This document shows, piece by piece, positions 11,002 through 27,320 of a stretch of 64,000 nt of DNA. The first letter of the stretch is position 1. Every line of letters starts with the position of its first letter. The notes beneath the pieces were generated by a model, which saw nothing but the letters and a program-made list of their open reading frames with translations, ran no database searches and was not told the origin of the DNA. Position numbers and translations under genes: made by a program. This DNA is from Pseudomonadota bacterium (GTDB lineage: Bacteria; Pseudomonadota; Alphaproteobacteria; Micropepsales; Micropepsaceae), in contig JAJZDZ010000003.1 in NCBI GenBank assembly GCA_021851325.1, positions 1 through 64,000 on the forward strand, in the 5' to 3' direction.

Positions 11002-11069
11002 TTTAGCCTCCGTAGGATGCGCTACGGGGCGAGTTCACGCGATACCGGGCGTAGTCTCGATTGGATTGC

Positions 11070-11101: not shown

Positions 11102-11626
11102 CTCGGTCTTCGACAAGGCCGCGGCCTTTGCCTCTCGATATGTGGCCTTGGCGTTCGTCCTGAAGCGATTCATGCCCTCCACATCCTTCAGGCCCTTTAG
11201 ATCGCCGCCCTGCCGAATAAAGTTTAGCATCTCGCTCATAATCCTCTCCCGCTCTACTGGCAGGGGGCCAGATCGCGCGCGCTCGCCGGCTGGGCGCTTG
11301 GGCGCCTTCTTCGCAACGGGCCAGATGGCGTCTACATCTGCCTGGCGCACTCGCATTTGTTCAAAATCAAAGATTCTGCGCTCGACCCGCAGCGCCGGTG
11401 GTGCGGCTGGCGCCGGCGGTTTCTGTGCGGGCATGACCACCCCGATCTGCCACGATGACTTGGCAACTTCGACCTCAGGCACCATCGGCCCCCAATAGAC
11501 GGTAAGTTCACCGTCCGCGGCAGCGAGCCTGAGGTTCTCAAGCGCCGCGGCCATGTCACCGCCTAGCGCGTCGGCGATCTGGGGTAAGAGATCCATGAGC
11601 GGCGTATAGGGCGACTTATATGTCAT
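11084..11626 (-). CDS. Phage protein, unknown
   Basis: 180 residues. The first 60 look globular, followed by an alanine/proline-rich linker (about 68-85) and a basic C-terminal half. Its ATG overlaps the integrase stop (ATGA), so it is translated with the integrase. A DNA-associated role fits the basic tail, but no known motif is visible. Confidence 0.6.
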   Translation of the reverse strand: MTYKSPYTPLMDLLPQIADALGGDMAAALENLRLAAADGELTVYWGPMVPEVEVAKSSWQIGVVMPAQKPPAPAAPPALRVERRIFDFEQMRVRQADVDAIWPVAKKAPKRPAGERARSGPLPVERERIMSEMLNFIRQGGDLKGLKDVEGMNRFRTNAKATYREAKAAALSKTENLDRN

Positions 11627-12948
11627 GCTGGCAGCTCCAACCCCGTTGCGCCGGCACGAGCCGCCGCCAAGCTGGTGACGTTGGACGCGGGCTCTTGGCC
11701 CAGGCGCTTGAGGTAGGCACCCCAGGATTCGAGTGCATGTCTCTTTTCGGCGAGATAATCGTGAAGATCGTAATTCTTCTTGATACCGGGGCGGACGTGC
11801 GCCAGGACGGCCTCGGCGACCTCTTCACGGATGCCAAGCTTAGACAGGTTGGAGCGCACGGAGCGCCGAATATCGTGGTTTGTGAAGTGCCCGAGCTTGA
11901 CCTCTCCGGGGTCCACACCGCGCCGCCGCGCCATAGCCTCAAGCGTTCGCAGCATCCTCGCGTCGAGCCTCTCCTTGATCTTTTGGCTCATCCACACAGG
12001 CTTTTTGCCTAGGGTAGTCGTGAATACGAAGTCGCCCTTCTTGCCGCGCGGCAATCCTTTCAGGACTGTCAAAATGTCGTCGGTCAGCGGCACAACGTGG
12101 GAGCGTGCGGAGCCGTTGCGTCCCTTCATGCGTTCGGCTGGAATGGTCCAGATCCGGTTGGCGAAGTCGAACTCGCTCCAAACAGCGTCAGCGACCTCAT
12201 TAAGTCGAAGTCCGGTCAAAGCAAGAAGCTGGTAAGCGGGGCCGGCCGGATATGGTGTCCGCCGGGCAGCGCGCCACAGGGCAAACAGCTCGGACTCTGA
12301 GAGAATGCGGTCGCCGGTAGGCTTCTCGCCCAGCTCCCGCCGGGCCCGGATGCCATCTGCGACTGAGGCCTCAAGCCCATAGGCCTGTTCCTCGACGGCC
12401 CAAGTTAGCAGCCGCTTTATATCTCCCAGCAAATTCCGGGCCTGAGCCGGCGCGCTTGCCTTCTTGTCGCGAATTACCCCGAGGATATCACGCCGGGTGA
12501 TGTCGGTGATGGGCTTGTGACCGAGCCTGGCGATCAGGTCGCGACGCAGCGAACGCTCAACCTCGCTGCCCTTGCGCTCACTAGGAAGTTTTTCCTTTAC
12601 AAAATCCTCAAACACAGCCTCGAGTGTGTTCGCGCGCTTCTGCTGCTCGGCGGCAATGGCACGCGCCGCCTCGTCTTTCGGATCAATCCCGCGTTCGAGC
12701 AGCGCCAGCCATTCCCGGGCCCGGATGCGGGCCTCGTCTAGCTTCAGCTCGCCGACCGTGCCCAAGGCGCGCCTAGTCGGGTTCGGGCTCCCGGGGAAGC
12801 GGGCAAGCAGGACGTAGGACTTGTTGCCCCGATCAGTGACCCGGAGTCCAAGCTGCGGAATTATCGCATCAAAATGCTCGGCGCGTTGTCCTTTGGGAGC
12901 CGCTTTCCGGGTCTTCACGAAGCGATCTGTAAACTTGACCCTGTTCAA
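11623..12948 (-). CDS. P4-type tyrosine integrase
   Basis: 441 residues from a TTG at 12948 that has GGGGGAG six bases upstream; in-frame codons further upstream give a poor N-terminus. Domains: an N-terminal arm-binding domain (DUF4102-like, about 1-95), a core-binding SAM-like domain (about 105-190) and the catalytic domain (about 215-420). Catalytic residues are visible as Arg in LTGLRLNE, His/Arg in HDIRRS, and the nucleophile Tyr in KKNYDLHDY. It recombines the element with the tRNA-Asn gene, whose 3' fragment lies about 165 bases beyond the start codon. Confidence 0.93.
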   Translation of the reverse strand: MNRVKFTDRFVKTRKAAPKGQRAEHFDAIIPQLGLRVTDRGNKSYVLLARFPGSPNPTRRALGTVGELKLDEARIRAREWLALLERGIDPKDEAARAIAAEQQKRANTLEAVFEDFVKEKLPSERKGSEVERSLRRDLIARLGHKPITDITRRDILGVIRDKKASAPAQARNLLGDIKRLLTWAVEEQAYGLEASVADGIRARRELGEKPTGDRILSESELFALWRAARRTPYPAGPAYQLLALTGLRLNEVADAVWSEFDFANRIWTIPAERMKGRNGSARSHVVPLTDDILTVLKGLPRGKKGDFVFTTTLGKKPVWMSQKIKERLDARMLRTLEAMARRRGVDPGEVKLGHFTNHDIRRSVRSNLSKLGIREEVAEAVLAHVRPGIKKNYDLHDYLAEKRHALESWGAYLKRLGQEPASNVTSLAAARAGATGLELPA

Positions 12949-12969
12949 CTTTGACTCCCCCTTGGGGCA

Positions 12970-13099
12970 ACATGGGGGCAACACAATTGCCCCTCTGCGC
13001 ATGTTTTCCCATGTCGCACAGCATCGTACAACGTTGAGGATAGATCAAGATATTACAGTGGCTTACAAACAGAAAAAGTCGCTTCAGTTGCCCCCATGT
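12970..13099. repeat. 13-bp inverted repeat next to the attachment site
   Basis: ACATGGGGGCAAC at 12970-12982 and its reverse complement GTTGCCCCCATGT at 13087-13099. A related GGGGCAAC also occurs at 12964-12971. The two copies flank the integrase promoter region and lie just inside the right junction, where integrase arm-type sites are normally found. Confidence 0.55.
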
Positions 13100-13161: not shown

Positions 13162-14126
13162 TTTGCTTTGGACAGTTAAGGATCGCCACACTCCCTTTCC
13201 AAACTTGGACAGGACACTAATACGATTGGCCTTGCCGGTCGCGCGCACTAGCTGAGACTGCGCTCGCCTGTGTAGCTCGAGAGAGAATTTAGAGTGGCTC
13301 GGGTCTTGTCCCGGCATTGAGCTCGCTTCTAGACTACAATTCTACCATTCCGCTCGAGCCGTCGTACTCTGAAAAGTGCTGATATCTCTAAAAAGTACGC
13401 TACGTCGTCCAATTCCACGCAGCCCCTCCTAGCAATGAGCTTTAAGAGGCAGCTGCTACAAAACAACGTGGTACTCCTAGGCATCTGCGCGGTCCCTATG
13501 CAGTGACGGAACACCAAGGATGACGGACCGCCGTCACAACCTCCACTCCGGCTTAGCCAGCACTGTGAAGCCCAGGTCGCCCGCAAAGTCGCTGCGGCTA
13601 GATGGTCGCGCCCAAGATCCTTGAGGCCCTCGCCCACCCCAAACGCGCGCATTGCTGGACGCATCGCCCCTTACAATATCCCGATCGATCCCAGAACCCA
13701 GAACGAATCCGCCGAACCTCACACTCGCCTTACCCACCAGCGCCTCAACGTGGTCGGCGCGCCCAGGTTCTTCCCAAATTTATCATTGCATTGCGAGGAA
13801 TGAACCCTGGCAAGACAAAGCATACTCGAAGAATGAGACTACACAGGTCAAGATCAAATAGCTCTACTCCGTAAACCCGCATCGATCACCAACCAGGCGC
13901 TAGCAAAAACACAGCCTTACTTTATGCCGGTTTCAGCTCAAACGAATGTCGACGATATCGAATTGGAAAAATATTGACGTCACTTCTTGTTCGTTACCCG
14001 ACCACACATACCGAGCACAGTTAATTACCGTGCTCGCTGCTCAGAGCCTCCTCCCCGATTCCCCTGGCCCCACTTAACAGCACATATAAATGAGCCTTTG
14101 GAAAAGGGCCTTATGCGCAAGCACTC
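13162..14126. other. Gene-poor stretch right of attR
   Basis: Almost 1 kb with only short, uneven reading frames on both strands and no ribosome sites or family-like sequence. I see no gene, tRNA or clear terminator. It probably represents decayed DNA beside the integration hotspot. Confidence 0.55.
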
Positions 14127-14163
14127 CTATCTCACTATCTCACTATCTCACTATCTCACTATC
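14127..14163. repeat. Octanucleotide tandem repeat
   Basis: The unit CTATCTCA is repeated about 4.6 times without interruption. It lies just beyond the stop codon of the leftward reductase gene (14168). Such arrays change length by replication slippage; here it would affect only the 3' region of that gene. Confidence 0.85.
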
Positions 14164-14167
14164 AAAC

Positions 14168-15292
14168 TCAATCAAGTCCAGGATTTATAAGGTACTTTTC
14201 GCCTGTAGCACGGCGATTATAGGCTGCTATGGCAGCAGGCGCCAAAGCGCCTGCAAGTGAAACCACATTGGAATAGTGACTTACAAAGGTCGTTTTAATT
14301 TCGCGGGCAACACGCTGGCGTAACCTCTCAGTTTCAGCTGGCCCAATTTTTTCAAGTAGTGGTGTCAACAACCAACCTCCTACACTCCAAAGCATGCCAT
14401 AGCCGCGCGAAAGTTCCGTTGGCCCCGAGTTTAAACCACCATAGATGTATACCTGCTTATGAATTGATGATCCGTACCGCGTGTATTCCTTTGCCGATCG
14501 GCTTGCTACTGCCTCCATTGCGGTTAAAATTTGACTTGCTAATTTTCCACCGCCGATCGCATCAAATGCAAGCGTGGCACCAGTTTCCGCGAGCATGTCA
14601 ATAAGTTCCTCTAGGAAACCAGGGCTAGTTGAATCACACACATACCGTGCGCCAATACCTCTTAGAATCTGAACTTGGGCAGAGCTACGAACGATGTTAA
14701 CCAGAGGAATATTATCGGCGAGGCATACTCTTATTAGCATTTGTCCAAGATTAGATGCCGCTGCAGTATGAACGAGTGCAGAATGCCCCTCACGGCGCAT
14801 CGTTTCAATCATGCCAAGTGCACTGAGCGGATTTACGAAGCACGACGCTCCTTCTGCTGCCGTTGTCCCCGGCGGCAACTCGATGCAATTGGACGCAGAA
14901 ATTGTACGATACTGCGCATACATGCCGCCCCCAAACATTGCGACAGTCTTGCCCAAAAGATGCCCTGCCTTTGCTCCAGCCTTGATAACTTCGCCAGCGC
15001 CCTCATTGCCAACAGTGAGTGACTGCCCCTGTCGCGTGGCCATCATACGCTGATAAGCGACGGGGATAGGAGCCGTAACAACTGGGCTATTTGCCGACCC
15101 AGAAAACTGGGCTAAGCTCATGTCAGCAACTCCAAACAATAATCCAAGATCAGATGGATTGATTGGCGCTGCATCGATACGCACCAAAACTTCTTCTTCT
15201 CCTGGGTCCATGACAGGTACCTGAGCAATAGAAAGCTCAACCTCGCCCCTTTGTGTGACTAGTGAACGCAATTGACGTCCGCTCATGGCCAT
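14168..15292 (-). CDS. MDR-family NAD(P)H-dependent oxidoreductase (quinone or enoyl reductase-like)
   Basis: 374 residues from the ATG at 15292, which has AGGAG seven bases upstream. It is a medium-chain dehydrogenase/reductase: an N-terminal GroES-like fold with INPSDLGLLFG and GNEGAGEV motifs, and a C-terminal Rossmann domain (VHTAAASNLGQMLI and later FDAIGGG). The catalytic-zinc cysteine/histidine set of alcohol dehydrogenases is not seen, as in the quinone oxidoreductase and enoyl reductase branches. It stands alone, with non-coding DNA on both sides. The substrate cannot be predicted. Confidence 0.85.
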   Translation of the reverse strand: MAMSGRQLRSLVTQRGEVELSIAQVPVMDPGEEEVLVRIDAAPINPSDLGLLFGVADMSLAQFSGSANSPVVTAPIPVAYQRMMATRQGQSLTVGNEGAGEVIKAGAKAGHLLGKTVAMFGGGMYAQYRTISASNCIELPPGTTAAEGASCFVNPLSALGMIETMRREGHSALVHTAAASNLGQMLIRVCLADNIPLVNIVRSSAQVQILRGIGARYVCDSTSPGFLEELIDMLAETGATLAFDAIGGGKLASQILTAMEAVASRSAKEYTRYGSSIHKQVYIYGGLNSGPTELSRGYGMLWSVGGWLLTPLLEKIGPAETERLRQRVAREIKTTFVSHYSNVVSLAGALAPAAIAAYNRRATGEKYLINPGLD

Positions 15293-16666
15293 TGCTCGAC
15301 TCCTTGCGTGATGAACCACTGGTAACTAAGTATCTAACTCACGACGCATATTCAAATTACATGTTATTTTACGGTCTCTCCTGGAAACCAGGTCATTCTG
15401 TGAACATTATCGATTGACCAGCATGTAAATTACCAAGTCGACGGTGGATGACATCTCTATGCCAATACAAATGTCTAATCACTCAACCTGTCCAACTTAA
15501 AAAATGAGCACAATGCACCCGTCTACAAAATCGTGTAGGCCAAATGTTGACTCCTAAAGAAGTTTTTCGGCCGATTGAGCCGGTGTTTGACGACCAATGT
15601 ATGCCATTTACCTTGGAATACTATATGCTAAGTTTATTTTCTCCATTAGCGCGCGAGCCATTGTTGCAAATATTCGATGTCGCGCTCAAGATTCTCGTTA
15701 CTGACAACGACAAATGAACAAAGCGTCCGCCATAACTAGCGGCATGTCGTATAGCCCAGGCTTCTTGATTGCTTCGAACTTCGTCAAGCGCAGCAGAGCG
15801 CTTATACATCGTGCTTACGCCATTCGAGTTGGACCTTCACCGGCGCAATAATCCCGCCACCAATTTCAGCTTCTGCGATGAAAGGTGGCTCTTCTCTCCA
15901 TTTTGACGATTGTTGGCTCTAATCGAGACCAATGTCCTACGACGCTTTATAATGCCATAGCGTTAGCGGGTACCATTGGTCCGAGATTAATACCGACCGT
16001 CAAATTGTCGGCGACATTTACAGCCTGGCTTTCTGCTTAGCCGAGACAGTCCGCGGCGCTCTTGCCGTTGGCCACGATCCACAATTTTTCCTCGGCCGGC
16101 CAGTGGCACCGAGATTCCATCCCAGTCACCACAAAATACCATAATTTGAATATAGTCGCGTGATTGGCCACACTCCCTGCACTTCCTTCGCCCACCAGCG
16201 TCGAAGAGTGGCCTAAAGCGGAGGGATCCACCTCGCCCAATTATTTAGACGAATCACCAATGCCTAGTTCACCAAGCTTTATGACATCTTGACGCAGCTT
16301 AGCCACGATCGCCTCCAATTGCGAACGTCCCGCAGCGTTTGATTCTCCATCCTCCGGCGCCAGCCAGTAATGATTGGCCAGATTTCCGCGTCCTATCTGT
16401 TACTGAATGGACGTATAATGCGCGGACCACTCTGACGCAGTCCAAATAAACCTAACCGGTGCATCCTGCTATTGAGATAACGTGCTCACTTTAGCTGTAG
16501 ACGCCTTCACTGCGCTAACCGGGAAATGCCGTGACCACACAAGGTTCTACGCTTAATGTTTTGCCCAACACATGAGCTTCCGGATAAGCCTGTGAAACCA
16601 GAAATTCGAAGGAAAATTATCCTAACCGCTGCATCTTCCGAGGCGTTTGGGCAGCTTTAAAAATGT
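15293..16666. other. Long stretch without intact genes
   Basis: About 1.4 kb between the reductase and the FNR-like box. There are only short frames. One leftward fragment (16037-16240) may be transposase debris; another (15621-15809) has some protein-like character but matches nothing I know. The region is AT-richer than the core genome and looks degenerate. Confidence 0.5.
16040..16140 (-). pseudogene. Possible transposase N-terminal remnant
   Basis: The leftward translation contains CHWPAEEKLWIVANGKSA, which resembles the RRxWSxEEKxRIVxE start of IS66/IS3-type orfA helix-turn-helix proteins. The frame stops a few residues later and no inverted repeats or second open frame were found. This is a weak call from one short motif. 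Confidence 0.25.
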
Positions 16667-16680
16667 TGATTTAGCTCAAC
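16667..16680 (+). promoter_or_regulatory. FNR-like box before the ubiTUV operon
   Basis: TTGAT-TTAG-CTCAA matches the FNR consensus TTGAT-N4-ATCAA in nine of ten defined bases. A possible -10 (TTATGG, 16705-16710) puts the box centre near -42, the class II activator position. The first start codon is at 16739. Activation under oxygen limitation fits the O2-independent quinone genes of this operon. Inferred, not proven. Confidence 0.55.
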
Positions 16681-16738
16681 GACATAGTCGCAAAAAAGAA
16701 CTGCTTATGGGCCAAACTACGCCAAGGCCGGCAGCATT

Positions 16739-17917
16739 GTGACAAATAAACGTAGCCCTCACCTATCACGCAATACCGTCGTCAAAAGCTTCCGTGGACC
16801 ACTCGGAGGAGACGAGCACTACATCACCCTAACCGCTGATGGAGAAGGCGATCTCGCCAGCCAACTCAGCGAGATAGAGCATCGGTATTCGGCCACGCTT
16901 CGCGCCCTCAACTTAGAACCTGAAAGCGCCATTTTCCGTCGCCTCTTTGTCAGCGACGCCATGAACCAGGCCTCACTGATCGCTTCAAGTGAACTAGCAA
17001 AGTCAGCAGCTGACAATCCCGTTGCAATATCTATTATTCAGCAACCCCCCCTACCTGGTGCCAAGCTTGCACTTCTTGCGTATCACATCGATGGTGATCC
17101 CAGCGTTCACAAGCAAAAGATATCAGTTCATAATACTCTAATAGAGAAAAAGGGCCGACGTCATTTGTGGACGACCGGTCTTTGCTCCGGACAAGGTTTC
17201 CCAGACCCATCATCCGCCGTGCAAACGCGCCGTATCCTAACCAATCTAGTGGATACCTTAGAGGCCCAACACGGGTCATTGTTTGAGCACTGCATACGAA
17301 CGTGGTTCTATCTTAAGGATGTTGACGTCTTTTATCAGGGCATGGTCGACGCCCGCGGACAATTCTTTACCGAACAGGGATTAACATCCGAAACACACTA
17401 CATTGCGAGTACTGGCATAGAAGGCGGCTGCTCGCATCGTTATGACGTCGTTGTACTGGACGCCTACTCTAATCTGGATCTCAACCCCAATCAGGTGTCC
17501 TTCCTCAATGACTTCTCCCGCCTATGTGCGACAAAAGATTACAACGTCCATTTCGAACGCGGAACTCGCATTGCGTATGCCGATCGCACCCATCACTTCA
17601 TCTCCGGAACAGCGAGCATAGATACGTCTGGCAACGTCGTTCACATTGGAGACGTGACACGCCAGGCCGAATATGCCCTAGGCCACGTGGAAGCGTTACT
17701 CCAGTTTGGAGGGGCAAGCCTCGACGACCTCGGACACATAATCGTATATCTGCGTGATCCGACCGACTATCCACGTGTAAGTGACGTCTTGGGACACGCG
17801 TTGCCAAACATCCCGACAGTGTTCGTGCAGGGGGCTGTATGTAGGCCGCAATGGCTTGTTGAATTGGAAGGCATCGCCGTTGCATCGCATGAAGACCCAT
17901 CACTGCCATCATTTTAG
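16739..17917 (+). CDS. RidA/chorismatase-superfamily protein (FkbO/Hyg5/XanB2-like)
   Basis: 392 residues from a GTG. The C-terminal 130 residues are a RidA-type fold (HHFISGTASID, HIGDVTRQ, then VCRPQWLVELEGIAV). The N-terminal 250 residues also have superfamily character (RTWFYLKDVD, ARGQFFTEQGL, STGIEGG). Total length and the C368-x6-E375 pattern fit the chorismatase group, in which Cys and Glu at this spacing act on chorismate; members such as XanB2 give 3- and 4-hydroxybenzoate. A tandem RidA imine deaminase is the main alternative. It is the first gene of the ubiTUV operon, 13 bases before the next. A 4-hydroxybenzoate supply for ubiquinone is the inferred role. Confidence 0.6.
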   Translation: MTNKRSPHLSRNTVVKSFRGPLGGDEHYITLTADGEGDLASQLSEIEHRYSATLRALNLEPESAIFRRLFVSDAMNQASLIASSELAKSAADNPVAISIIQQPPLPGAKLALLAYHIDGDPSVHKQKISVHNTLIEKKGRRHLWTTGLCSGQGFPDPSSAVQTRRILTNLVDTLEAQHGSLFEHCIRTWFYLKDVDVFYQGMVDARGQFFTEQGLTSETHYIASTGIEGGCSHRYDVVVLDAYSNLDLNPNQVSFLNDFSRLCATKDYNVHFERGTRIAYADRTHHFISGTASIDTSGNVVHIGDVTRQAEYALGHVEALLQFGGASLDDLGHIIVYLRDPTDYPRVSDVLGHALPNIPTVFVQGAVCRPQWLVELEGIAVASHEDPSLPSF

Positions 17918-17930
17918 AAAGGGTTTGGAT

Positions 17931-18602
17931 ATGTATGATGAACAGCCTAATTTTTCCATGCTCAATGAAGAGGAAATCGCGATAGCTAAGCTGCGCACCG
18001 ATCCATATGAATATGCGTACGTAGAGCAGGCCATCCGGCCGGAATTTCGTGAGCCCGTCCTAGCCGATGCTCCAGTGATACCGGATCGCGGTAGCTATGG
18101 GTTACCAAATCTGAACTACGGCCCTGCGTTCGGAACTGTCATAAAGGATTTAACGAGCCAACGATTTAAACGTCTAATTGAGCAAAAGTTTGACATGGAC
18201 CTCAGTAACAATCCGCCTGTTCTGTTAATGATGGGAAATACTACGGGCCACTACAACGAAGGCTTTGCCCACCCAGACTCCAGGCACAAGATTGTCACCG
18301 TCATCGTGGGCTTTAGTCGGGAATGGCCATATCAAAATGGTCGTTTGCGCGTTCTAAGAAGTTCCGATCGCAATGACTTTGCATTCGAATTTCCGCCCGA
18401 GTTCGGACACATGCTTATGTTCAAAGTTAGCGAAAAGTCATGGCACGGATTTCTGCCTCAAAAAGGACCGCGCATGAGTCTACAACTTTGCTACGTGGAC
18501 TCGGAAGCATATGTTAGAAGCGAATATGCTCGTCATGGTGTCAGCGCGTTCGCTAAATCTGTTCCCATGCTGCGCAAAATCATAGAATGGGCGCCTCGTT
18601 GA
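17931..18602 (+). CDS. 2-oxoglutarate/Fe(II)-dependent oxygenase 1
   Basis: 223 residues from the ATG at 17931, with AGAAAGGG upstream. The double-stranded beta-helix core carries the iron ligands H114-x-D116 (GFAHPDSRHK) and H172 (SWHGF), with R181 placed to bind the 2-oxoglutarate carboxylate. This resembles prolyl-4-hydroxylase-like 2OG-FeII_Oxy_3 proteins of bacteria. No signal peptide, so probably cytoplasmic. It lies between the chorismatase-like gene and a second, different oxygenase; 21 bases separate it from the latter. The substrate is unknown. It needs O2, which contrasts with ubiTUV downstream. Confidence 0.75.
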   Translation: MYDEQPNFSMLNEEEIAIAKLRTDPYEYAYVEQAIRPEFREPVLADAPVIPDRGSYGLPNLNYGPAFGTVIKDLTSQRFKRLIEQKFDMDLSNNPPVLLMMGNTTGHYNEGFAHPDSRHKIVTVIVGFSREWPYQNGRLRVLRSSDRNDFAFEFPPEFGHMLMFKVSEKSWHGFLPQKGPRMSLQLCYVDSEAYVRSEYARHGVSAFAKSVPMLRKIIEWAPR

Positions 18603-18623
18603 ATCGGCGTAAAGGCTAGACCC

Positions 18624-19304
18624 ATGACCTTTCCTCACCTACCTACCGTTACGGAGTTGGCGGATCACTTTATACGTTCGCTGCGAGGCTCCGAGATAGC
18701 TCATGAACCGTATCGTCGCTGGAATATGACAAATGTATTCCCGGAAAGCATATGCTTAGGCATACTTACGCTTCCTATTGCCCCACCGCTGATCGACGAT
18801 TGCTACGGCGTAAGAGATCGCCATAATGAAAAGCGCACCTTTTTCACTCCAGCGCTACAAAAGGACTTTCCAACTTGTGCCGTTTTCGCGGAAGCGATGC
18901 AGAGGCCAGACGTTGCGCGAGCATTCAACGATGTTTGTGATGTTCCCGCGGATGGCTCCTACTTGCGAATTGAGTACATCCAGGATTTGGATGGCGCTTG
19001 GCTCGAGCCCCATCGGGACATCAAGGAAAAGCTCTTTTCCATGGTTGTCTATCTATGCACGGGTCCCCATGCGAAGGATTGGGGCACGGATATTTATGAT
19101 GATAACAAGCGCTGGATTGGTCGGTCGTCGGCCGAATTCAACTCTGCCGTAATCTTTATCGCCGGGCCCAATACCTGGCACGGCTTTGATAAGCGTCCGA
19201 TCATAGGCGTTCGTCGCCTGATGGAAATTAATTACGTCCACCCTAGCTGGCGCGATCGTGACCAGCTTTCATTTCCTGATCAGCCGATTAGGGTTACGTT
19301 GTGA
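18624..19304 (+). CDS. 2-oxoglutarate/Fe(II)-dependent oxygenase 2
   Basis: 226 residues. Iron ligands are H130-x-D132 (EPHRDIKEK) and H186 (TWHGFDKR), with R197 as the likely 2-oxoglutarate anchor. It shares the WHGF block with the preceding gene but is otherwise divergent, so the pair is not a recent duplication. Its stop codon overlaps the GTG start of ubiT (GTGA), so the two are translationally coupled. This is the strongest sign that the oxygenases act with the quinone genes. Cytoplasmic; substrate unknown. Confidence 0.72.
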   Translation: MTFPHLPTVTELADHFIRSLRGSEIAHEPYRRWNMTNVFPESICLGILTLPIAPPLIDDCYGVRDRHNEKRTFFTPALQKDFPTCAVFAEAMQRPDVARAFNDVCDVPADGSYLRIEYIQDLDGAWLEPHRDIKEKLFSMVVYLCTGPHAKDWGTDIYDDNKRWIGRSSAEFNSAVIFIAGPNTWHGFDKRPIIGVRRLMEINYVHPSWRDRDQLSFPDQPIRVTL

Positions 19305-19987
19305 ATACATCGCGTCCCCACCAAGGCATCACCGCTCCAGCATCACCAATTCTACTTCTAGGGTTGGTTTTGGACAAGTTACCGCTGCGCGTCGTGCAGC
19401 CGATATTGGATCGGTTATTACAAATCATTTTGCGACAGCATCCAGGTTCTCTCGATCGTATGGAAGAATGGGGAAATTCCAGGGTATTAATTGATCCCGT
19501 CGACCTACCCTTTGCGATGGTATTGCGACCTAATCCCTCTCAACCAAGCCTCCAGGCCACACATAAGCAAGGCAATGTCGAAATCGACGCTATTGTTCGC
19601 GGCCCCCTTGAGACGCTTATAGACCTCGCCGAGGGGCGAGTGGACGGAGATACCCTGTTCTTTTCGCGCGAACTAGTTGTTGAAGGCGACACGGAGGTCA
19701 TCGTTGCGCTTCGTAACGCCGTCGATGCTGCTGGAATTGATATATTGGAAGACATAGCTAAGGCGCTTGGTCCTCTTGGCTCCCCATTTAGGGTTGCAGC
19801 CAATACCGGGTGCAGGATTGCTAATCAACTGCGCCGAGATATGGAGGCAATCGGGATGGCTTTGATTGCTCCCGCTTTACGTCAAAACGACACACAGGCT
19901 TTTCGCATTTCAGAGATCGAAGAAGAGTTGAAAATGTTACGCCGGCAGCGACCTCGCTCCGCACGCCATGCTGAGCCTTCTCCATGA
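19301..19987 (+). CDS. ubiT: UbiT-like SCP2-domain protein, O2-independent ubiquinone synthesis
   Basis: 228 residues from a GTG. It is an SCP2-type lipid-binding protein: hydrophobic helices near residues 15-50, the sterol-carrier core at about 45-145 (FAMVLRPN, GPLETLIDLAEG, DTLFFSRELVVEGDTEVIVALRNA). The FFSRxLxxEGDTE block is characteristic of UbiT. UbiT binds the hydrophobic quinone intermediates so that UbiU and UbiV can act. The C-terminus (about 165-228) is an alpha-helical extension with a basic end. It overlaps oxygenase 2 upstream and ubiU downstream by four bases each. Confidence 0.88.
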   Translation: MNTSRPHQGITAPASPILLLGLVLDKLPLRVVQPILDRLLQIILRQHPGSLDRMEEWGNSRVLIDPVDLPFAMVLRPNPSQPSLQATHKQGNVEIDAIVRGPLETLIDLAEGRVDGDTLFFSRELVVEGDTEVIVALRNAVDAAGIDILEDIAKALGPLGSPFRVAANTGCRIANQLRRDMEAIGMALIAPALRQNDTQAFRISEIEEELKMLRRQRPRSARHAEPSP

Positions 19988-20973
19988 AGCGCCCAGAACT
20001 AATCTGCCCAGCAGGAACACCTGCCGCCCTTGAAAGCACAATCAGAGCGGGTGCTGACGCCGTTTATCTCGGATTTCGGGATGAAACTAATGCTCGCAAT
20101 TTTCCAGGGCTTAATTTTAGCCGAAAGGAATTGAAAGAAGGCATTTCCTTTGCGCATAACAACGGGGCCAAAGTTCTTGTTGCGATCAATACATTTCCAA
20201 AGTCAGGTGAACCAGAGCTTTGGTATCGCGCGGTGGATGACGCAGCTAATCTCGGCGCTGACGCAGTAATATTGGCTGATATCGGGCTTTTGGACTATGC
20301 AAATAGGGTCCATCCGAACCTTAGATTACATCTTTCGGTACAAGCAGCAGCATCCAATCCCATTGCCATTGGGTACTACACTGATCGTTTCGGTATCAAA
20401 CGCGTCGTGCTTCCTCGCGTCCTTACTGTACCGGAGATCGCCGCATTGAGTTCCGCTGTTGATCCGGTGGAAACAGAGGTTTTTGTATTTGGGGGCCTCT
20501 GCGTAATGACTGAAGGTCGTTGCGCACTTTCATCCTACGTGACAGGCCGCTCGCCAAACATGAACGGCGTGTGCTCTCCTGCATCTCATGTACGCTATGT
20601 CGAAACTGCGCACGGCATTGCCAGTAGGCTCGGAGATTTTACGATAAACGAGTTTTCTAAAAGCGAACCTGCCGGTTACCCCACGCTCTGCAAAGGTCGC
20701 TTTGTTGCTAGAGGTAATGCTAGCTACCTATTCGAAGAGCCAACCTCATTAAACACTCTTTCCATTCTTCCCGATCTTATGAACGCTGGAGTGTCCGCAT
20801 TTAAGATAGAAGGGAGACAACGGGGGCGTGCATATGTTGCAGCCGTGGTTGAGGCGTTCCGGGCAGGCATAGACGCAGTCATAGCTGGGCATTCCATTCC
20901 GGACATCGATTTGGCTCATATCACCGAGGGTGGGCGCCAAACAACTGGTGCCTATGAAAAGAAATGGCGATAA
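19984..20973 (+). CDS. ubiU: UbiU, U32-family Fe-S protein, O2-independent ubiquinone hydroxylation
   Basis: 329 residues, very close to E. coli UbiU in length and motif order (ELICPAGTPAALE, GADAVYLGF, NARNFPGLNF, EGRCALSSY, YPTLCKGRF, KIEGRQR). The four [4Fe-4S] ligands are C173, C180, C197 and C236, with the same 7/17/39 spacing as in E. coli. Despite the U32 'peptidase' label, UbiU and UbiV form a complex that hydroxylates the ubiquinone ring without O2, using prephenate as the oxygen donor in E. coli. It overlaps ubiT by 4 bases and ubiV by 10. Confidence 0.95.
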   Translation: MKRPELICPAGTPAALESTIRAGADAVYLGFRDETNARNFPGLNFSRKELKEGISFAHNNGAKVLVAINTFPKSGEPELWYRAVDDAANLGADAVILADIGLLDYANRVHPNLRLHLSVQAAASNPIAIGYYTDRFGIKRVVLPRVLTVPEIAALSSAVDPVETEVFVFGGLCVMTEGRCALSSYVTGRSPNMNGVCSPASHVRYVETAHGIASRLGDFTINEFSKSEPAGYPTLCKGRFVARGNASYLFEEPTSLNTLSILPDLMNAGVSAFKIEGRQRGRAYVAAVVEAFRAGIDAVIAGHSIPDIDLAHITEGGRQTTGAYEKKWR

Positions 20974-21875
20974 CAGGAATTGCGTCAAAACTTACTCTTG
21001 GGCCACTACTATTTCACTGGCAACCCAAAGCTTGGTGCGATTTTTACTTTCGCATTGCGGACGAAGCTGACGTTGATACTGTCCACCTTGGAGAAGTAGT
21101 GTGCTCAAAGCGTACACCGTTCTTCGACAAACTGCTTCCCAATGTGATTGAACGTCTTGCGGATGCTGGGAAGGAAGTCGTCATTTCATCGCAAGCTCTC
21201 ATCATGAGCGCGAACGAACAAAAAGTGGCCCGCGATCTGGCAACTTTAGAGGGGGTTATTATAGAGGCTAATGACATAACGCTTGCAGCTCTCTTAGCTG
21301 GCCGTCAGTTTGCCGTAGGTCCATTTGTAAACATTTATAACGAAAACACCCTTAGCGTATTTGAAGATATGGGCGCTTCCCGTATATGCCTTCCGCCCGA
21401 ATTACCACGCGAGCGCCTTGATGAAATCGCGTCCCGTGCAAGGGCGGAGCTGGAAGTACAAGTATTTGGGCGACTTCCGTTGGCAATTTCTGCGCGGTGC
21501 TATGCAGCAAGAGCGCATAGCCTTTCCAAAGATGGGTGTCTTTATGTCTGCGCAGAGCATTCGGACGGAATGGCGGTTGACACCCTAAATGGTAAGCCGC
21601 TTCTCGCCGTAAATGGTACCCAGACTCTATCCTTTAGCATGCTCAATCTGCTGCCCGAGATACCACATATGCAGAAAATAGGTATTAGCCGCTTTCGCCT
21701 CTCGCCGCATAGCGTTGATATGGTTTCGGTCGCTAAAACATTTCGTAATGCGATGACGGGATTACTTGGCCCTGATGCGGCTACCGCGCAACTACTTGAA
21801 CTTTGCCCTGGGATTGAGTTCTCTAACGGCTACTTTTACGGAGCACCTGGCCATAAGTATGTCGAGGCCGACTAA
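20964..21875 (+). CDS. ubiV: UbiV, U32-family Fe-S partner of UbiU
   Basis: 303 residues. Shorter U32 protein with LGPLLFHW, VVCSKR, FGRLPLAISARC and VNGTQTLS motifs as in UbiV. Cluster ligands are C47, C179, C192 and C196; the 13/4 spacing of the last three equals that of E. coli UbiV. The first nine residues extend beyond the usual start, perhaps because the ATG is fixed by the overlap with ubiU. It is the last gene of the operon. It works with UbiU in the cytoplasm or at the membrane. Confidence 0.95.
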   Translation: MAITGIASKLTLGPLLFHWQPKAWCDFYFRIADEADVDTVHLGEVVCSKRTPFFDKLLPNVIERLADAGKEVVISSQALIMSANEQKVARDLATLEGVIIEANDITLAALLAGRQFAVGPFVNIYNENTLSVFEDMGASRICLPPELPRERLDEIASRARAELEVQVFGRLPLAISARCYAARAHSLSKDGCLYVCAEHSDGMAVDTLNGKPLLAVNGTQTLSFSMLNLLPEIPHMQKIGISRFRLSPHSVDMVSVAKTFRNAMTGLLGPDAATAQLLELCPGIEFSNGYFYGAPGHKYVEAD

Positions 21876-22390
21876 CTTTTACGAAGATGCTCCGTTATGC
21901 CGCTTTGAGTAAATATCACAATCAATTTGGCCACGATTTCCTGCCGACGCTTCTCCAAGTTGCGCTGAATTCGCATAATCTTGGAAATATAAGTTCTAAA
22001 AAGCGCGGTGTATATCCGAAAGCGTCATCTAATCGGAATGCCCGAATTAAGGGCTAATCATTGTTAGTTTTTCCAGTCCCCATTTTCATATTATTTGCGT
22101 GATCGCTTTCGAATAGATGTCCATATGGCCATCGTGTAGCCCGGGAATGACATAGCGAGCGCCTCACGCGTACATCACACATCATCCGTCTGCCGCTACA
22201 TTATCCATCTTCTACTTGATCGCTGATACAGAGACGATATCAATGGCCGCTGCAGGGCAACGGCTATTAAGACGAACTGGCGTAGCGATCGGTGGTCGCT
22301 TTGGAAGTCGACCACTGGCATCCTCCATAAGCACGCACAATCGTACTTATAGAGATGCCAGTGGCCATTCAGCCATACTAGAGCTTCATT
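21876..22390. other. Intergenic region between convergent ubiV and the BNR gene
   Basis: About 500 bases with no credible gene. Its one clear structure is the long hairpin at 22312-22364. A short rightward frame at 22216-22455 runs through that hairpin and overlaps the end of the BNR gene, so I do not call it. Confidence 0.5.
22312..22364. repeat. Long imperfect hairpin
   Basis: CCACTGGCATC (22312-22322) pairs perfectly with GATGCCAGTGG (22354-22364). Pairing continues inward to ATAAG/CTTAT with one bulge and one mismatch, giving a stem of roughly 19-20 pairs around a 14-base loop. It lies 26 bases past the leftward BNR stop and could serve as a terminator, but the long stem also resembles REP or MITE-type elements. 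Confidence 0.65.
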
Positions 22391-25300
22391 CTATGGACTC
22401 AGATTGTTGCCAGGCACCACCCCACTCAAATGCCAACGGGCCATCGTTTGGTTAAATGTCGCAACCTTCGTGCTAAGGAAGTGATCATAGTATTCTAGTG
22501 CTGCACGGTACTCGCGATCGTAGATCGCTTTTACTTCAAGTTTAGGCGCCGCAGGCGCTGCATCTGAACCTTGAAGTAAATAGGCTAGCATCTCTAAGTG
22601 TTCACGAACCTTATCTGGAACACGTAAGGTCGATTCCTCTGCTTTTGCATTGCTTGTAATTTCTAACTTCACCGCTTTAGTTGCCCGCTCGAGTGCTTTG
22701 ACGGCATCATCAACCACTTTTTCTTCAGCAGTGCCCTTTGCGGCAACACGCAGAGCGTTTGCCTGCGTATCGATTGCATGCAGGCGATTTAACGCTACAT
22801 CCAGTTGCGAGAATTCATGCAACACCTCCTCAGATATTTTGTACTGCTGCTGCATCGCAGCAAGCTTTCCATGCGAAGCTGGGTCGTTCACGACCGTGAA
22901 GGTTTGTGATGCGGTGTGACCGCCGATCTTAAGTGTTGCCGTATAGGTACCAGGTGGCAGCATCGCTCCTGCTCTTGGTCCTCGTTGGAACTTTAAGGGT
23001 GTTTCCCAGCGGACTGGTCCCTGCGAGCGGAGATCCCAGTGGATTCGATGTAGGCCTGCCTGCATTGGTACCCAAGGAACCTTCTTTTTGTTAGAGGTCG
23101 AGTCGGCCTGTTCATGCGTATCTGAATTCTTTCCGTTGCGTTGGCTCTCGCTACCTTTAGCCCCCCTCATTGAAGGCGTCATCTTCTCTGGTTTGCCCTT
23201 GTGTAGGCCTTTAATGGTACGAACTACCTTTCCCGATGCATTGGTGATTATCAATTCGCCTGGAGAACCTTCGCTCTTGGAAAGATAATAGTTAAACGTC
23301 GCGCCATAAGCTGGGTTTTCCCCATAAAAAGTTCCATTTCCTAAGTCCTCCACATATGACCAAGGCCAATAGCGAAGCGCCGCTTCAGGACGAAATAGTG
23401 TGAGCGGTTCGCGCGCCACCTTCGGATTGAAATCCTGAAAAGGCGTAAGATCGTCTAGGATCCACAATGAACGACCATGCGTTGCTACAACTAAGTCGTT
23501 ATCGCGGGCATCTAGCGCAATATCATAAACTGCAGCATCCGGTAGCCCTAAGCCAAATAGGTACCAATGGTGACCTCGGTCCCACGAAACATAAAGACCA
23601 TTTTCTAGCCCTGCGTAATACAGATTGGGATTATGAAGGTCGCGACGAATGACATGAGCATAAACATCCTTCGGCAGATTTCCGCTCACTGACGTCCAAG
23701 TCGCACCATAATTACGACTGCGGTAAAGATAGGGCCTGAAATCACCACTAAAGTGGCGGTCTACGGCAATCAGCACATTTCCAGGGTTTGTACGCGAAAT
23801 ATCAATCGACTCAATACGTCCCCACGGTGCCAATCCAGATATATTTGAACTGACTCTGGTCCATGTCTTTCCCCCATTTCGCGTTAATTGTACCTCACCA
23901 TCGTCAGTTCCCACCCAAATCACGTTCGGATTCGAGGGAGCAACTGAAATTGTCAGAATTGCATCATACGCTTCCGCACCTGAATTATCCTTTATTACAG
24001 GCCCTCCAGATGATCCCTCCTTTGCTTTGTCATCGCGTGTAAGATCCGGGCTAATAACCTTCCAGGTTCGACCGCGGTTCACGCTTTTAAAGACGACGTT
24101 TCCGCCAGCATATAGGACCTTAGGATTGTCCGGAGAAACAGCAAACGCGGCTTCCCATGCAAAGCGGTAAGGGAGAGAGGCGACACCTTTTCCTGTGAAA
24201 TCACGCGGATAAGGCTCGATGTCACGGGACTGCTCGGTGGCACGATCAAAGATCTGATATACACCGTTTTGTGTACTATTATATATCAGGTTGGGGTTGT
24301 CGGCAGCCGGTATTGCATAGACGCCGTCGCCGCCGTTAAGCGCGTACCACATGCGATTTAGAATGCCAGTGGGATCCTTGCTCCAACTCGGACCGCACCA
24401 AGAACTGTTATCCTGCAAGCCGCCACATACCTGGTACCGTATGCCCCGTCCTACCGCGACGTGATAAAATTGTCCGATTGGAAAATTATCAATAAATTTC
24501 CAGGTTTTTCCGTTGTCGCGAGAGATAGCTATCCCGCCGTCATTACCATCAATTATCCGGCCGCTGCCATTGGGGTCGATCCACATGGTATGGTAGTCAA
24601 CGTGGATTTTGCTAGCGATTGTATGAAAAGTGTGACCGCCGTCGCTCGACACCAGCAAATTGTTGGAGATGGCAAACACATGATTAGGGCGCTTAGGATC
24701 GACCTCTATGTGAGAAAAGTAGAACGGCCGAGAATCAACTTCTTGATTCTTGCTTGCGAGCACCCAGTGCTCGCCATAGTCGCTTGAGCGCCAAAGAACA
24801 CCCTGATTGGAGCCTATTACCGCATAGACGATGTTCGGCGAGCTTTCGGCCACTGCAAGACCAATCCGTGCGACCGGCTCTGTCGGCAATCCATGCCCTC
24901 TCAGCCGGCTCCAAGTTGCGCCACCATCAATAGATTTATAGATAGCATCCGCGGGTCCACCATCGGAATAAGTCCAAGGTTTGCGCCGGTATTGATAGGT
25001 CGCAGCGTAGACAATCTGCGGATTTGCAACGTCGATTGCCATGTCCGAGATGCCGACGCCTGGCCCCTTGTAAAGAACCTTAGTCCATTTCTTGCCGCCA
25101 TCAGTGGTGCGATACACACCCCGTTCAGGATTATTGGCCCAAGGACTGCCCATGGCCGCAACCAGGACTATATTTGGGTTATGGGGGTTTACAACGATCC
25201 GTGAAATCTGAAAGGTTTGATTGAGGCCAACTCGCGTCCAATGCCGGCCGCCATCCGTTGATTTATAGACGCCATCGCCAAAGGAAACGTCATTGCGAAC

Positions 25301-25681
25301 GTTTGCTTCACCTGTGCCCGCCCATATGACAGATGGATTACGAGGGTCGATCGCAAGCGCACCGATTGAAGCAACCTTCTGATGCTGAAATAGGGCTTTC
25401 CAAGTAGTGCCTCCATTATCAGTGCGAAATATGCCGCCATCAGCGGTACCTACATAATAAAGATTGGCATTACCTTGAACACCAACCACTGCTGTCACCC
25501 TCCCCCCAGTGACTGCTGGCCCAATTTGACGAAAATGAATACTGCTACCGACACGCAACGGAAGCGCCGTAAATCCTCGATGGTTTTCCGCCTGAGAGCC
25601 TGCCTGTCCGGACCAGGCGGGAGCGATAAATAGAGTGCATGAAAGAGCCGCAATGGCCGAAAGCAGGCGGGGAGATCTCAT
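22391..25681 (-). CDS. Secreted VPS10/sortilin-like BNR-repeat protein
   Basis: 1096 residues from the ATG at 25681. A signal peptide is visible: basic MRSPR, a hydrophobic core and a small-residue end near WSGQAG (about residue 25). The body holds many BNR/Asp-box units (S-x-D-x-G-x-T-W: DNGGTTWK, STDGGRHW, TTDGGKKW, SIDGGATW, SRDNGKTW, TRNGGKTW), forming a beta-propeller as in VPS10 and sialidase-like proteins. A charged linker follows (about 830-870), then a beta-rich and a helical C-terminal domain (about 940-1096). Likely periplasmic or extracellular. Such proteins are often annotated as glycosyl hydrolases, but the catalytic residues are not evident. It stands alone. Confidence 0.85.
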   Translation of the reverse strand: MRSPRLLSAIAALSCTLFIAPAWSGQAGSQAENHRGFTALPLRVGSSIHFRQIGPAVTGGRVTAVVGVQGNANLYYVGTADGGIFRTDNGGTTWKALFQHQKVASIGALAIDPRNPSVIWAGTGEANVRNDVSFGDGVYKSTDGGRHWTRVGLNQTFQISRIVVNPHNPNIVLVAAMGSPWANNPERGVYRTTDGGKKWTKVLYKGPGVGISDMAIDVANPQIVYAATYQYRRKPWTYSDGGPADAIYKSIDGGATWSRLRGHGLPTEPVARIGLAVAESSPNIVYAVIGSNQGVLWRSSDYGEHWVLASKNQEVDSRPFYFSHIEVDPKRPNHVFAISNNLLVSSDGGHTFHTIASKIHVDYHTMWIDPNGSGRIIDGNDGGIAISRDNGKTWKFIDNFPIGQFYHVAVGRGIRYQVCGGLQDNSSWCGPSWSKDPTGILNRMWYALNGGDGVYAIPAADNPNLIYNSTQNGVYQIFDRATEQSRDIEPYPRDFTGKGVASLPYRFAWEAAFAVSPDNPKVLYAGGNVVFKSVNRGRTWKVISPDLTRDDKAKEGSSGGPVIKDNSGAEAYDAILTISVAPSNPNVIWVGTDDGEVQLTRNGGKTWTRVSSNISGLAPWGRIESIDISRTNPGNVLIAVDRHFSGDFRPYLYRSRNYGATWTSVSGNLPKDVYAHVIRRDLHNPNLYYAGLENGLYVSWDRGHHWYLFGLGLPDAAVYDIALDARDNDLVVATHGRSLWILDDLTPFQDFNPKVAREPLTLFRPEAALRYWPWSYVEDLGNGTFYGENPAYGATFNYYLSKSEGSPGELIITNASGKVVRTIKGLHKGKPEKMTPSMRGAKGSESQRNGKNSDTHEQADSTSNKKKVPWVPMQAGLHRIHWDLRSQGPVRWETPLKFQRGPRAGAMLPPGTYTATLKIGGHTASQTFTVVNDPASHGKLAAMQQQYKISEEVLHEFSQLDVALNRLHAIDTQANALRVAAKGTAEEKVVDDAVKALERATKAVKLEITSNAKAEESTLRVPDKVREHLEMLAYLLQGSDAAPAAPKLEVKAIYDREYRAALEYYDHFLSTKVATFNQTMARWHLSGVVPGNNLSP

Positions 25682-26414
25682 GATTGGCCTTTTGAATAGT
25701 TGACTGCCTTCGAACAAACGGGTTGCCCTTAGGCTTTGCCACGACAATTACCCGGATGGCAGCTTTGTGACCAGCCTTGCGTGCAAAACTAGGACTGCAC
25801 TCAATGCCGCGTTTTCTAACGCGCCAAGACGAGCCATCTCTACTCTCGAGCGTCTACCAGGCTCACGGCCGGGATCTAAGGTTTGACGACCCAAATCTTG
25901 GCGATCTCACAACAAAACAGCGCGCAGCAAAATATTTTCCGCATCGCAAAATCAAATCGTTAGGATAATAATTAAGCAATATCAGATAATTACATTTTCC
26001 ATGTATGCAGCGCAGCAAAAGACTAGGAACGTAAGAAGCAATGCCCACTTTCCCAGCGACCGGTGCCAACACGCTTCGGGTGGTACGGCCTAACATCACC
26101 ACTCCCTTAGCGTACTTAGTTGCAACTGCGCGAAGTTGTATCCATCACCTCACGAAACATTGAAAGAGATGAAGCCCCAGCAGTTGCCTGGCCAGAACCT
26201 CGTACCGCACCCCCATTGAGCGGATCGTCACATAAGTTAAGCCAGGATCATGTGATAGATCATCTTCAATCGCAGCCCTAGCTCTTACCCTTGTCAAACA
26301 GGTACGTCAGGGTCTTTCATATACCCGTCTGCTCTAATACCGCAGGCCAAATTCCCGCAGAACAAGTTGCTACCTGCTTTTTAATAACGGGAAAACCAAA
26401 CAGGGAGGTGCCCC
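25682..26414. other. Gene-free divergent region before tauD-like gene
   Basis: About 730 bases between two divergently transcribed genes. AT-rich patches could hold promoters for both sides, but I find no clear operator, repeat or small gene. The start of the rightward gene has a strong ribosome site (AGGGAGGTG). Confidence 0.5.
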
Positions 26415-27320
26415 ATGTCCATGCAAACTAGCAAGCGTCCGTTGGTCGACATAAAGGCCCTAGCGCCACAAACGATCACCATCGAGCCTCTTACCCCCGT
26501 TATCGGAGCAGAGATTGGCGGCGTAGATCTCTCTCGCCCACTGTCCGAACAACAATTCGGTGAAATTCGTGATGCCTTCAATACTTACCATGTTCTCGTA
26601 TTCCGAGATCAAGTTCTAACGGCCGAGGACCACAAGCGTTTTGGGCGATTGTTCGGAAAATTGCACGTTCACCCCTACCATTCAAAGAATTCGCCTCCAT
26701 TTCACGCCGATACACGCGGAGCACCCGATCCGGAAATTCTTGTTGTAAAGGCAGACCAGAATTCTCGCTACGTTGCTGGCGAAGGTTGGCATTCGGACGT
26801 CACATGTGATGTTGAGCCGCCGATGGGATCAATGCTTTATATTACGGAAACGCCAGAGATCGGAGGAGGTGACACCTGCTTTCTTAGTACCATCGCCGCC
26901 TATGATTCTCTTTCCCCCAAGATGCAGGATTTTGTAAAAACTCTCACAGCGGTACACGACGGGGCCAAGCCTTACACTGGCGCTTACGGAACGACACCAC
27001 CAGAAGGCGGTTGGCCCAAAACAACTCATCCGGTAGTCATTCGTCATCCTGAAAACGGCAAGCTGAGCCTCTTCGTCAATCGAGGCTTCACGACTAAGAT
27101 TCATGAACTAACCCGCAGCGAAAGCGACGCTATTCTTGAAATGCTTTGGCACCACATAGAGTCACGCCTGGAATTCCAATGCCGTGTGCGTTGGCGTCCT
27201 AACAGCCTTACCTTCTGGGATAACCGCTGCGCCCAACACCATGCCGTGTGGGACTATTACCCTTATTCGCGGTATGGCCAACGCGTTTCAATTGTGGGTG
27301 AACGGCCTAGACTTTGGTAA
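26415..27320 (+). CDS. TauD/TfdA-family 2-oxoglutarate dioxygenase
   Basis: 301 residues with an AGGGAGGTG ribosome site. Family motifs are IGAEIGGVDLSRPL near the N-terminus, the iron ligands H126-x-D128 (GWHSDV), the distal His in AQHHAVWDYYP (residues 275-276) and the 2-oxoglutarate-binding Arg at about 290. Members oxidise taurine, alkylsulfates, 2,4-D or other small organic acids, releasing sulfite, aldehyde or phenol. No transporter or sulfonate gene is adjacent, so the substrate is open. It is the third 2-oxoglutarate oxygenase within 10 kb, but of a separate family from the two in the ubi operon. Confidence 0.9.
   Translation: MSMQTSKRPLVDIKALAPQTITIEPLTPVIGAEIGGVDLSRPLSEQQFGEIRDAFNTYHVLVFRDQVLTAEDHKRFGRLFGKLHVHPYHSKNSPPFHADTRGAPDPEILVVKADQNSRYVAGEGWHSDVTCDVEPPMGSMLYITETPEIGGGDTCFLSTIAAYDSLSPKMQDFVKTLTAVHDGAKPYTGAYGTTPPEGGWPKTTHPVVIRHPENGKLSLFVNRGFTTKIHELTRSESDAILEMLWHHIESRLEFQCRVRWRPNSLTFWDNRCAQHHAVWDYYPYSRYGQRVSIVGERPRLW

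Follow-up and report, generated by a model that had tools for sequence, protein, structure and literature searches.

A chorismatase-fold gene and two putative 2-oxoglutarate oxygenase genes adjoin ubiTUV in a Micropepsaceae genome and may belong to a low-oxygen quinone module

UbiT, UbiU and UbiV are the components of a pathway that hydroxylates ubiquinone precursors without O2 in Escherichia coli, where UbiT binds the lipid intermediates (PMC6747719, PMC10470549, PMC11707229). Here we describe a locus in which the genes of this pathway are preceded by three others. The window, i.e. the whole stretch of DNA analysed, comprises 64,000 nucleotides (nt) of a Pseudomonadota bacterium of the family Micropepsaceae (assembly GCA_021851325.1, contig JAJZDZ010000003.1, positions 1 to 64,000) and corresponds to contig C47 of a 3.53-Mb genome that is 98% complete. 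Six closely spaced open reading frames (ORFs), all on the plus strand, occupy positions 16739-21875 in the order RID-OX1-OX2-UbiT-UbiU-UbiV (Table 1). The stop codon of RID is separated from the ATG of OX1 by 13 nt and OX1 from OX2 by 21 nt; OX2/UbiT and UbiT/UbiU overlap by 4 nt each and UbiU/UbiV by 10 nt. An earlier, sequence-only reading of this DNA had described the same six-gene layout, with gaps of 13 and 21 bases and a 4-base overlap of OX2 with ubiT, and the ORF positions confirm it. RID, OX1 and OX2 together are called the triad below.

Table 1. Features of the ubiTUV locus (positions within the window)
Feature	Position	Strand	Description
FNR-type box TTGATTTAGCTCAA	16666..16679	.	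1 mismatch to TTGATNNNNATCAA; begins 73 nt before first start codon
RID (P0001), 392 aa	16739..17917	+	Predicted chorismatase fold, looks like a separate subfamily; G290, C368, E375 align with Hyg5 G240, C327, E334
OX1 (P0002), 223 aa	17931..18602	+	2-oxoglutarate-Fe(II) oxygenase; H114, D116, H172, R181; model closest to PasI, PolD
OX2 (P0003), 226 aa	18624..19304	+	2-oxoglutarate-Fe(II) oxygenase-like; H130, D132, H186, R197/R198
UbiT (P0004)	19301..19987	+	SCP2-domain lipid-binding accessory factor
UbiU (P0005)	19984..20973	+	U32-family O2-independent hydroxylase subunit; four Fe-S cysteines
UbiV (P0006)	20964..21875	+	U32-family O2-independent hydroxylase subunit; four Fe-S cysteines

At the sequence level, the three downstream products are members of the O2-independent ubiquinone pathway. 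They pass the NCBIfam equivalog cut-offs with 75.6 bits for UbiT (cut-off 46.9), 507.4 for UbiU (440) and 354.1 for UbiV (275), and the genome holds a single match to the UbiU protein and a single one to UbiV. Cysteines of UbiU (C173-X6-C180-X16-C197-X38-C236) and UbiV (C47...C179-X12-C192-X3-C196) fit the published iron-sulfur (Fe-S) motifs CX6CX16CX38C and CXnCX12CX3C, respectively (PMC6747719), in agreement with the earlier claim of complete Fe-S ligands. Equivalogs, Fe-S motifs, compact locus and an upstream FNR-type box are thus shared with the pathway of E. coli and other Pseudomonadota. The locus differs from it by the addition of RID, OX1 and OX2, which are outside the E. coli pathway proteins listed in the available part of PMC10470549. 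No chorismatase or 2-oxoglutarate (2OG) oxygenase joined to ubiTUV was found among the literature matches listed, judged by titles and abstract openings in a collection with few subscription papers and no bioRxiv preprints. Two papers describing ubiTUV layouts were searched by word in their available parts; '2-oxoglutarate' does not occur in that of PMC11707229, nor 'oxoglutarate' in that of PMC13386864.

The first gene of the operon, RID, had been called chorismatase-like, which holds for both fold and active-site residues. Its AlphaFold model (mean pLDDT 84) aligns with the chorismatases 4bps, 5a3k and 5ag3 at Z 28.5-29.0 over 299-303 residues (3.1-3.2 A, model residues 21-381). RidA-type structures match essentially the C-terminal domain (residues ~246-386) with Z up to 18.8, and an ordinary RidA deaminase was rejected on this comparison. 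When ten RID family members are aligned with two proteins above the cut-off of TIGR04444 (FkbO/Hyg5 chorismatase), 27 columns are invariant, and the P0001 residues in them include R187, R206, R274, G290, R339, C368 and E375. The Cys-to-Glu spacing of 7 and the glycine of the SGTAS segment match Cys-318, Glu-325 and Gly-231 of Nat-hyg5, which together with a third residue, Gly-164, have been assigned Hyg5-type roles (PMC7170507); the alignment places the counterpart of Gly-164 in P0001 with low confidence. FkbO carries alanine at the Hyg5-type glycine and cysteine positions.

Fold over most of the chain, catalytic glutamate, Hyg5-type glycine and cysteine and the invariant columns are therefore common to RID and the FkbO/Hyg5/XanB2 chorismatases. 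RID differs from them by its linkage to ubiTUV and 2OG oxygenase genes, by a poorly aligning, divergent N-terminal part, by an identity of 26% to the two proteins above the TIGR04444 cut-off and by a score of 42.9 bits to that family, whose cut-off is 325 bits and to which two proteins with an FkbO/Hyg5 chorismatase annotation have scores of 408 and 519. Since it falls below the curated cut-off, P0001 is not filed in TIGR04444; judged by modelled fold and active-site residues, it looks like a separate subfamily near the chorismatases, with a predicted activity of this kind. The reaction of a chorismatase cannot be accurately predicted from alignment by itself (PMC3949708), so that 3-hydroxybenzoate (3-HB), 4-hydroxybenzoate (4-HB) and a dihydroxydiene acid are all possible products of RID. 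A chorismatase as the source of the ubiquinone ring has a precedent in XanB2, which supplies 4-HB for ubiquinone in Xanthomonas and belongs there to the biosynthesis of the pigment xanthomonadin (PMC3949708); RID, in contrast, has an FNR-type box and adjoins genes of the O2-independent pathway.

On three plasmids, a second RID copy before OX1-OX2 is split into two ORFs (L050 6184-7255, L051 1674-2736, L052 6038-7031; L numbers denote loci) and misses about 30 residues including the SGTAS segment; an intact RID accompanies ubiTUV on the same plasmids. A RID relative in Parabacteroides (L129 2984-11498) lies among genes for a porin, an imelysin, a di-heme oxidoreductase, a CxxCH-bearing hypothetical protein and a hemerythrin, which suggests an iron or redox role there.

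OX1 and OX2 had been read as two 2OG oxygenases. OX1 bears this out by passing the gathering score of Pfam 2OG-FeII_Oxy_3 (PF13640; 32.3 vs 27), and OX2, which fails it (18.3 vs 27), by its ligand residues. H114, D116, H172 and R181 of OX1 are invariant in 20/20 aligned rows, as is the HxD...H motif with arginine of OX2 (H130, D132, H186, R197/R198) in 21/21 aligned sequences; we take the HxD...H residues to be iron ligands and the arginine to bind 2OG. OX2-like proteins in the broad sense are found in 40/385 genomes of the class (13/43 UbiV-positive ones and 27/342 others), a set that includes other subfamilies and was not counted as triads. One distant OX2-like gene (46% identity; L144 of genome G129, 2950-6411) lies 0.05-0.2 kb upstream of ubiT in a stretch without RID and OX1. 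The OX2 of genome G200 is split in two, perhaps through an assembly error.

Closest to the OX1 model (pLDDT 79) are PasI and PolD (Z ~18, 182-186 residues aligned), enzymes of nucleoside-antibiotic pathways. They are 19-21% identical to OX1, which has the iron and 2OG ligands and, as a difference from both, sits in a ubiTUV operon. Next in structural similarity are Tpa1, OGFOD1, a Pseudomonas putida prolyl hydroxylase and PHD2 (Z 12-14). OX1 and OX2 might accordingly hydroxylate proteins, for example translation factors or UbiU and UbiV themselves, as an O2-dependent control with RID as metabolic partner. OX1 paralogues (35-37% identity) in the genus of the window adjoin a gene for a KamA-like radical S-adenosylmethionine enzyme (TIGR03822 over cut-off; L010, L011, L020, L023), in two cases with an EpmA-like gene fragment alongside (L011 1324-3400, L020 1348-3401), and such a paralogue is a candidate 2OG-type hydroxylase of elongation factor P. 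For OX1 itself, PasI and PolD fit better than the protein hydroxylases, and the annotations of the plasmid stretches, the triad loci covered by this search, list no epm gene; we regard a protein substrate as improbable.

The triad is not confined to the window. A scan of 84,980 species genomes with OX2 returned 21 loci at 60-85% identity, and a scan of a plasmid collection three records: pACRY03 of Acidiphilium cryptum, pACMV3 of A. multivorum and a plasmid of Acidithiobacillus ferrooxidans. A RID gene is present in 20/21 stretches, the remaining one (L044) ending at a contig end, and OX1 adjoins OX2 in 19/21 loci, the exceptions (L043, L045) coming from genomes without an OX1 match. UbiTUV genes lie within the stretch in 9/21 loci, in one more (genome G096) at a distance of about 11 kb along the contig, and on the same plasmid in 3/3 records, so that the triad shares a stretch, contig or plasmid with ubiTUV in 13 of 24 related loci. 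The plasmid occurrence, in two cases together with pdxST, is a further difference from the known UbiTUV pathway.

Layouts vary. The order RID-OX1-OX2-ubiTUV is found in the window, L029 and L030, that is in two of the 24 related loci, both from congeners. In L032, L038 and L041, ubiTUV-RID is divergent from OX1-OX2, and L044, cut by its contig end, is grouped with them; in L037 and L047, OX1-OX2-RID faces ubi genes on the opposite strand within about 4 kb; in L045, ubiTUV is divergent from OX2-RID. RID is 3' of ubiV, in the same orientation, in L032, L038, L041, L052 and pACRY03. The sequence-only reading had asked whether all six genes occur together elsewhere: the triad with ubiTUV does recur, but the exact six-gene order is limited to the window and the two congeners. 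The link that it drew between the first three genes and ubiTUV is nevertheless sustained by the joint recurrence and by the presence of UbiV given below, and the relatives do not uniformly show them unlinked.

Some of these loci resemble islands of low-oxygen biosynthesis. UbiTUV and/or the triad occur with pdxST in L052, L037, L047 and pACRY03 (L133 3491-12228), and genes of nrdD-nrdG type are near them in L031, L037, L042, L047 and pACRY03; several genes of these kinds in L037 and L047 were named by eye. O2-independent routes to quinone, pyridoxal phosphate (PLP) and deoxynucleotides are thereby adjacent, in the case of pACRY03 on a conjugative plasmid. The Acidithiobacillus ferrooxidans plasmid (CP084173.1, L050) is close to pACRY03 here, with equal OX1 and OX2 identities to the window, which means either cross-class transfer or a mixed culture. 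A fusion of a PF21948 lipoate-ligase-type domain with DUF116 is encoded near the triad in five loci, on the other strand upstream of OX1 in L033, L034 (5449-7080) and L035, and between RID and ubiV in L037 (10414-11976) and L047. In L031, an FTR1 iron permease gene lies about 6 kb from the triad.

Such neighbourhoods raise an alternative in which both gene sets belong to one FNR regulon and make separate products, UbiTUV ubiquinone and the triad another chorismate-derived aromatic, for example a hydroxybenzoate-type iron ligand or a redox shuttle for iron-rich acid waters. The row ubiT-ubiU-ubiV-RID-pdxS-pdxT-nrdD-nrdG of pACRY03 fits this, as do the imelysin, porin, di-heme oxidoreductase and hemerythrin genes around the Parabacteroides relative, the FTR1 gene of L031, the similarity of OX1 to PasI and PolD, whose entry titles place them among nucleoside-antibiotic enzymes, and the separate ancestry of triad and UbiV described below. 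Next to the triad, no gene for such a product was recognised, in neighbourhoods that are not fully annotated, with rough gene calls and few neighbours named, and the distribution of NrdD and UbiV given in the next paragraph also argues against it. Separate products are, in our opinion, possible but rather doubtful.

UbiV accompanies OX2 in 22/22 genomes, i.e. the window's and 21 others (scored with P0006 at E <= 0.001 instead of the family cut-off); the weakest best match, at a contig edge, has 129 bits, and further U32 matches in the same search have at most 61. The genomes were collected via OX2, which is therefore present by construction; RID lies beside it in 21 and OX1 in 20. The counts rest largely on metagenome-assembled genomes, 19/22 having been reached via loci without stated completeness. 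As baselines, UbiV exceeds the family cut-off in 43/385 genomes of the class, and it occurs in 25/96 genomes of the order, the three triad genomes included. Compared with the 382 class genomes without full-length RID among the matches listed, the 22/22 gives a Fisher p of 3e-20, with counts that are not independent. Full-length P0001 is present in 3/385 class genomes among the matches listed (the window's, G156 and G200), all three with UbiV (p = 0.0013); the other matches listed in the class sample cover the Rid domain only. On plasmids, UbiV is encoded by 3/3 OX2 records vs 171/72,556 records overall. NrdD, a marker of anaerobic biosynthesis, occurs in just 9/22 OX2 genomes, which points to a tie with UbiTUV more than with anaerobic biosynthesis in general; the triad as a mere companion of anaerobic life was rejected on this ground. 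UbiC was not found in 16/22 OX2 genomes, the window's included, in a search that covered these and not relatives without RID.

The ancestries of triad and UbiTUV differ in part, and the two appear to have come together more than once. UbiV of the window is 69-74% identical to UbiV of two triad-bearing congeners, against 46.6-48.6% for six UbiV of triad-free congeners, and belongs to a different clade from the latter. On a tree of 49 UbiV sequences (20/43 class UbiV regions included, partial UbiV of G100 omitted), presence of the triad changes seven times, at least five of the changes being forced by well-supported branches. A tree of RID+OX1+OX2 and a UbiV tree for 19 genomes and plasmids (the row of G108 without OX1) reject each other, with delta logL of 347 and 357 and p = 0 in the Kishino-Hasegawa (KH) and Shimodaira-Hasegawa (SH) tests; the approximately unbiased (AU) values of this comparison come from too small a number of replicates. 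From the varied gene orders and the mutually rejecting trees, the partnership seems to have formed repeatedly, and such repeated meeting of separate lineages favours functional coupling more than co-inheritance would.

A chance neighbourhood, with unrelated genes joined by horizontal transfer, would suit the surroundings of the operon. Its upstream side (1116-13002) is a prophage-like block with tape-measure-like, terminase-like and primase-like ORFs recognised by eye and a tyrosine-type integrase recognised by Pfam, 3.7 kb upstream of the operon; positions 14001-32000 have a lower GC content than the rest of the window (0.48-0.54 vs 0.54-0.61) and may be an island containing the operon. The variety of gene orders and UbiV lineages with which the triad recurs, its presence on plasmids, the UbiV count and the FNR-type boxes make mere chance very improbable. 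Phage cargo was likewise disfavoured, as no integrase match lies in the 6.1 kb of sequence available upstream of the operon in L030. That locus keeps the alcohol dehydrogenase and VPS10-like flanks (83-84% identity), and L029 has neither flank.

Common regulation is suggested by FNR-type boxes, although other regulators of the FNR/CRP family bind similar sites. Within 250 nt upstream, a box with at most one mismatch precedes 14/25 triad units and a perfect box 8/25, compared with 4.4% and 0.7%, respectively, when 250-nt stretches are drawn at random from these loci; the units are not independent, and the count omits L051, which nearly duplicates L050, and L091, which comes from the genome of L048 (G113 and G156 are identical by coordinates). 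The box starts 64-77 nt upstream in 10/14 units and 112-152 nt in the other four. Perfect boxes also stand before units without ubi genes in their stretch (L040, L046). In the divergent loci L032, L038, L041 and L044, a single perfect box between ubiT and OX1 could serve both directions. FNR boxes are known before ubiTUV (PMC11707229).

Taken together, these results lead us to propose, as a quite possible though tentative reading, that FNR switches on the operon as a quinone module for low oxygen, with all six genes in one pathway. At low O2, FNR would turn on the single transcription unit. UbiT would hold lipid intermediates and UbiUV would hydroxylate these without O2, the family role being assigned by equivalog match from E. 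coli. RID, OX1 and OX2 would be a mobile accessory module recruited to this pathway. RID would cleave chorismate, with 3-HB, 4-HB or another hydroxybenzoate with a 3,4-dioxygenated ring as the product, and so furnish the aromatic head group independently of UbiC, in the manner of XanB2 in Xanthomonas. OX1 and OX2 would use Fe(II), 2OG and trace O2 to oxidise the ring made by RID or a prenylated intermediate, under microoxic conditions in which FNR is active and some O2 is left. The end product would probably be ubiquinone, and may instead be a related quinone.

Several observations weigh against this proposal. 2OG oxygenases require O2 and are odd companions of an O2-independent pathway; one would have to suppose a system adapted to microoxic conditions, or else a different product of the trio under the same switch. 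An OX1 match was not found in 2/24 genomes tested (G108, G110), in 11/24 related loci no ubiTUV was seen on the piece of DNA (stretch, contig or plasmid) that carries the triad, and no FNR-type box with at most one mismatch was found within 250 nt of 11/25 units. Full-length RID relatives with 36-39% identity occur on plasmids of Bacteroidales and Deltaproteobacteria without ubi genes in the stretches viewed. The row of pACRY03 also contains pdxST and nrdDG, which serve different pathways, so that genes linked in this way do not necessarily act together. Most hosts keep aerobic hydroxylases (Ubi-OHase over cut-off in 19/22, Coq7 in 20/22), thus OX1 and OX2 are no simple replacement of these, and UbiC is present in 6/22 OX2 genomes, which weakens RID as a general substitute for a missing UbiC. 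The quinone-linked interpretation of the sequence-only reading, in which the added genes supply the ring precursor and alternative hydroxylation steps, is partly supported: it stands as regards the tie of the first three genes to ubiTUV and the chorismatase-like fold, stays tentative as regards ring supply and added hydroxylations, and loses ground as regards replacement of aerobic hydroxylases or UbiC.

Finally, 40/43 UbiV-positive class genomes have no full-length RID among the matches listed, which makes the triad dispensable for anaerobic ubiquinone synthesis. The same number bears on one more alternative, that RID and the oxygenases aid the UbiUV reaction instead of supplying the ring, for example by making or recycling a chorismate-derived oxygen donor. 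In its favour, the possibility that U32 hydroxylases take their oxygen from prephenate has been discussed (PMC10470549), and RID combines a chorismatase fold with a gene position 3' of ubiV in several loci. The donor evidently does not need RID in those 40 genomes, and such a role would not require 2OG oxygenases; we give it a slender chance.

The operon touches on three questions: the source of the ubiquinone ring in some proteobacteria without UbiC, the management of quinone synthesis at the microoxic levels that separate the oxic from the anoxic pathway, and a possible action of 2OG oxygenases on quinone precursors. Its relatives also show that acidophile plasmids can carry low-oxygen quinone genes, alongside genes for PLP and deoxynucleotide synthesis. 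A bolder version, which we consider unlikely but worth stating, is that OX1 and OX2 are new 2OG-dependent quinone-ring hydroxylases working at trace O2, which would bridge the flavin and di-iron enzymes of oxic conditions and the UbiUV of anoxic ones, with the ring coming from a new chorismatase subfamily; the whole set would be a mobile cassette for quinone synthesis at low oxygen that spreads on acidophile plasmids and elsewhere, with a modified ubiquinone as a possible product. In some bacteria, acid-loving ones included, genes for extra enzymes thus lie with those of O2-independent ubiquinone synthesis, a link that recurs across genomes and plasmids, and under scarce O2 these enzymes appear to provide an aromatic building block and to oxidise it.

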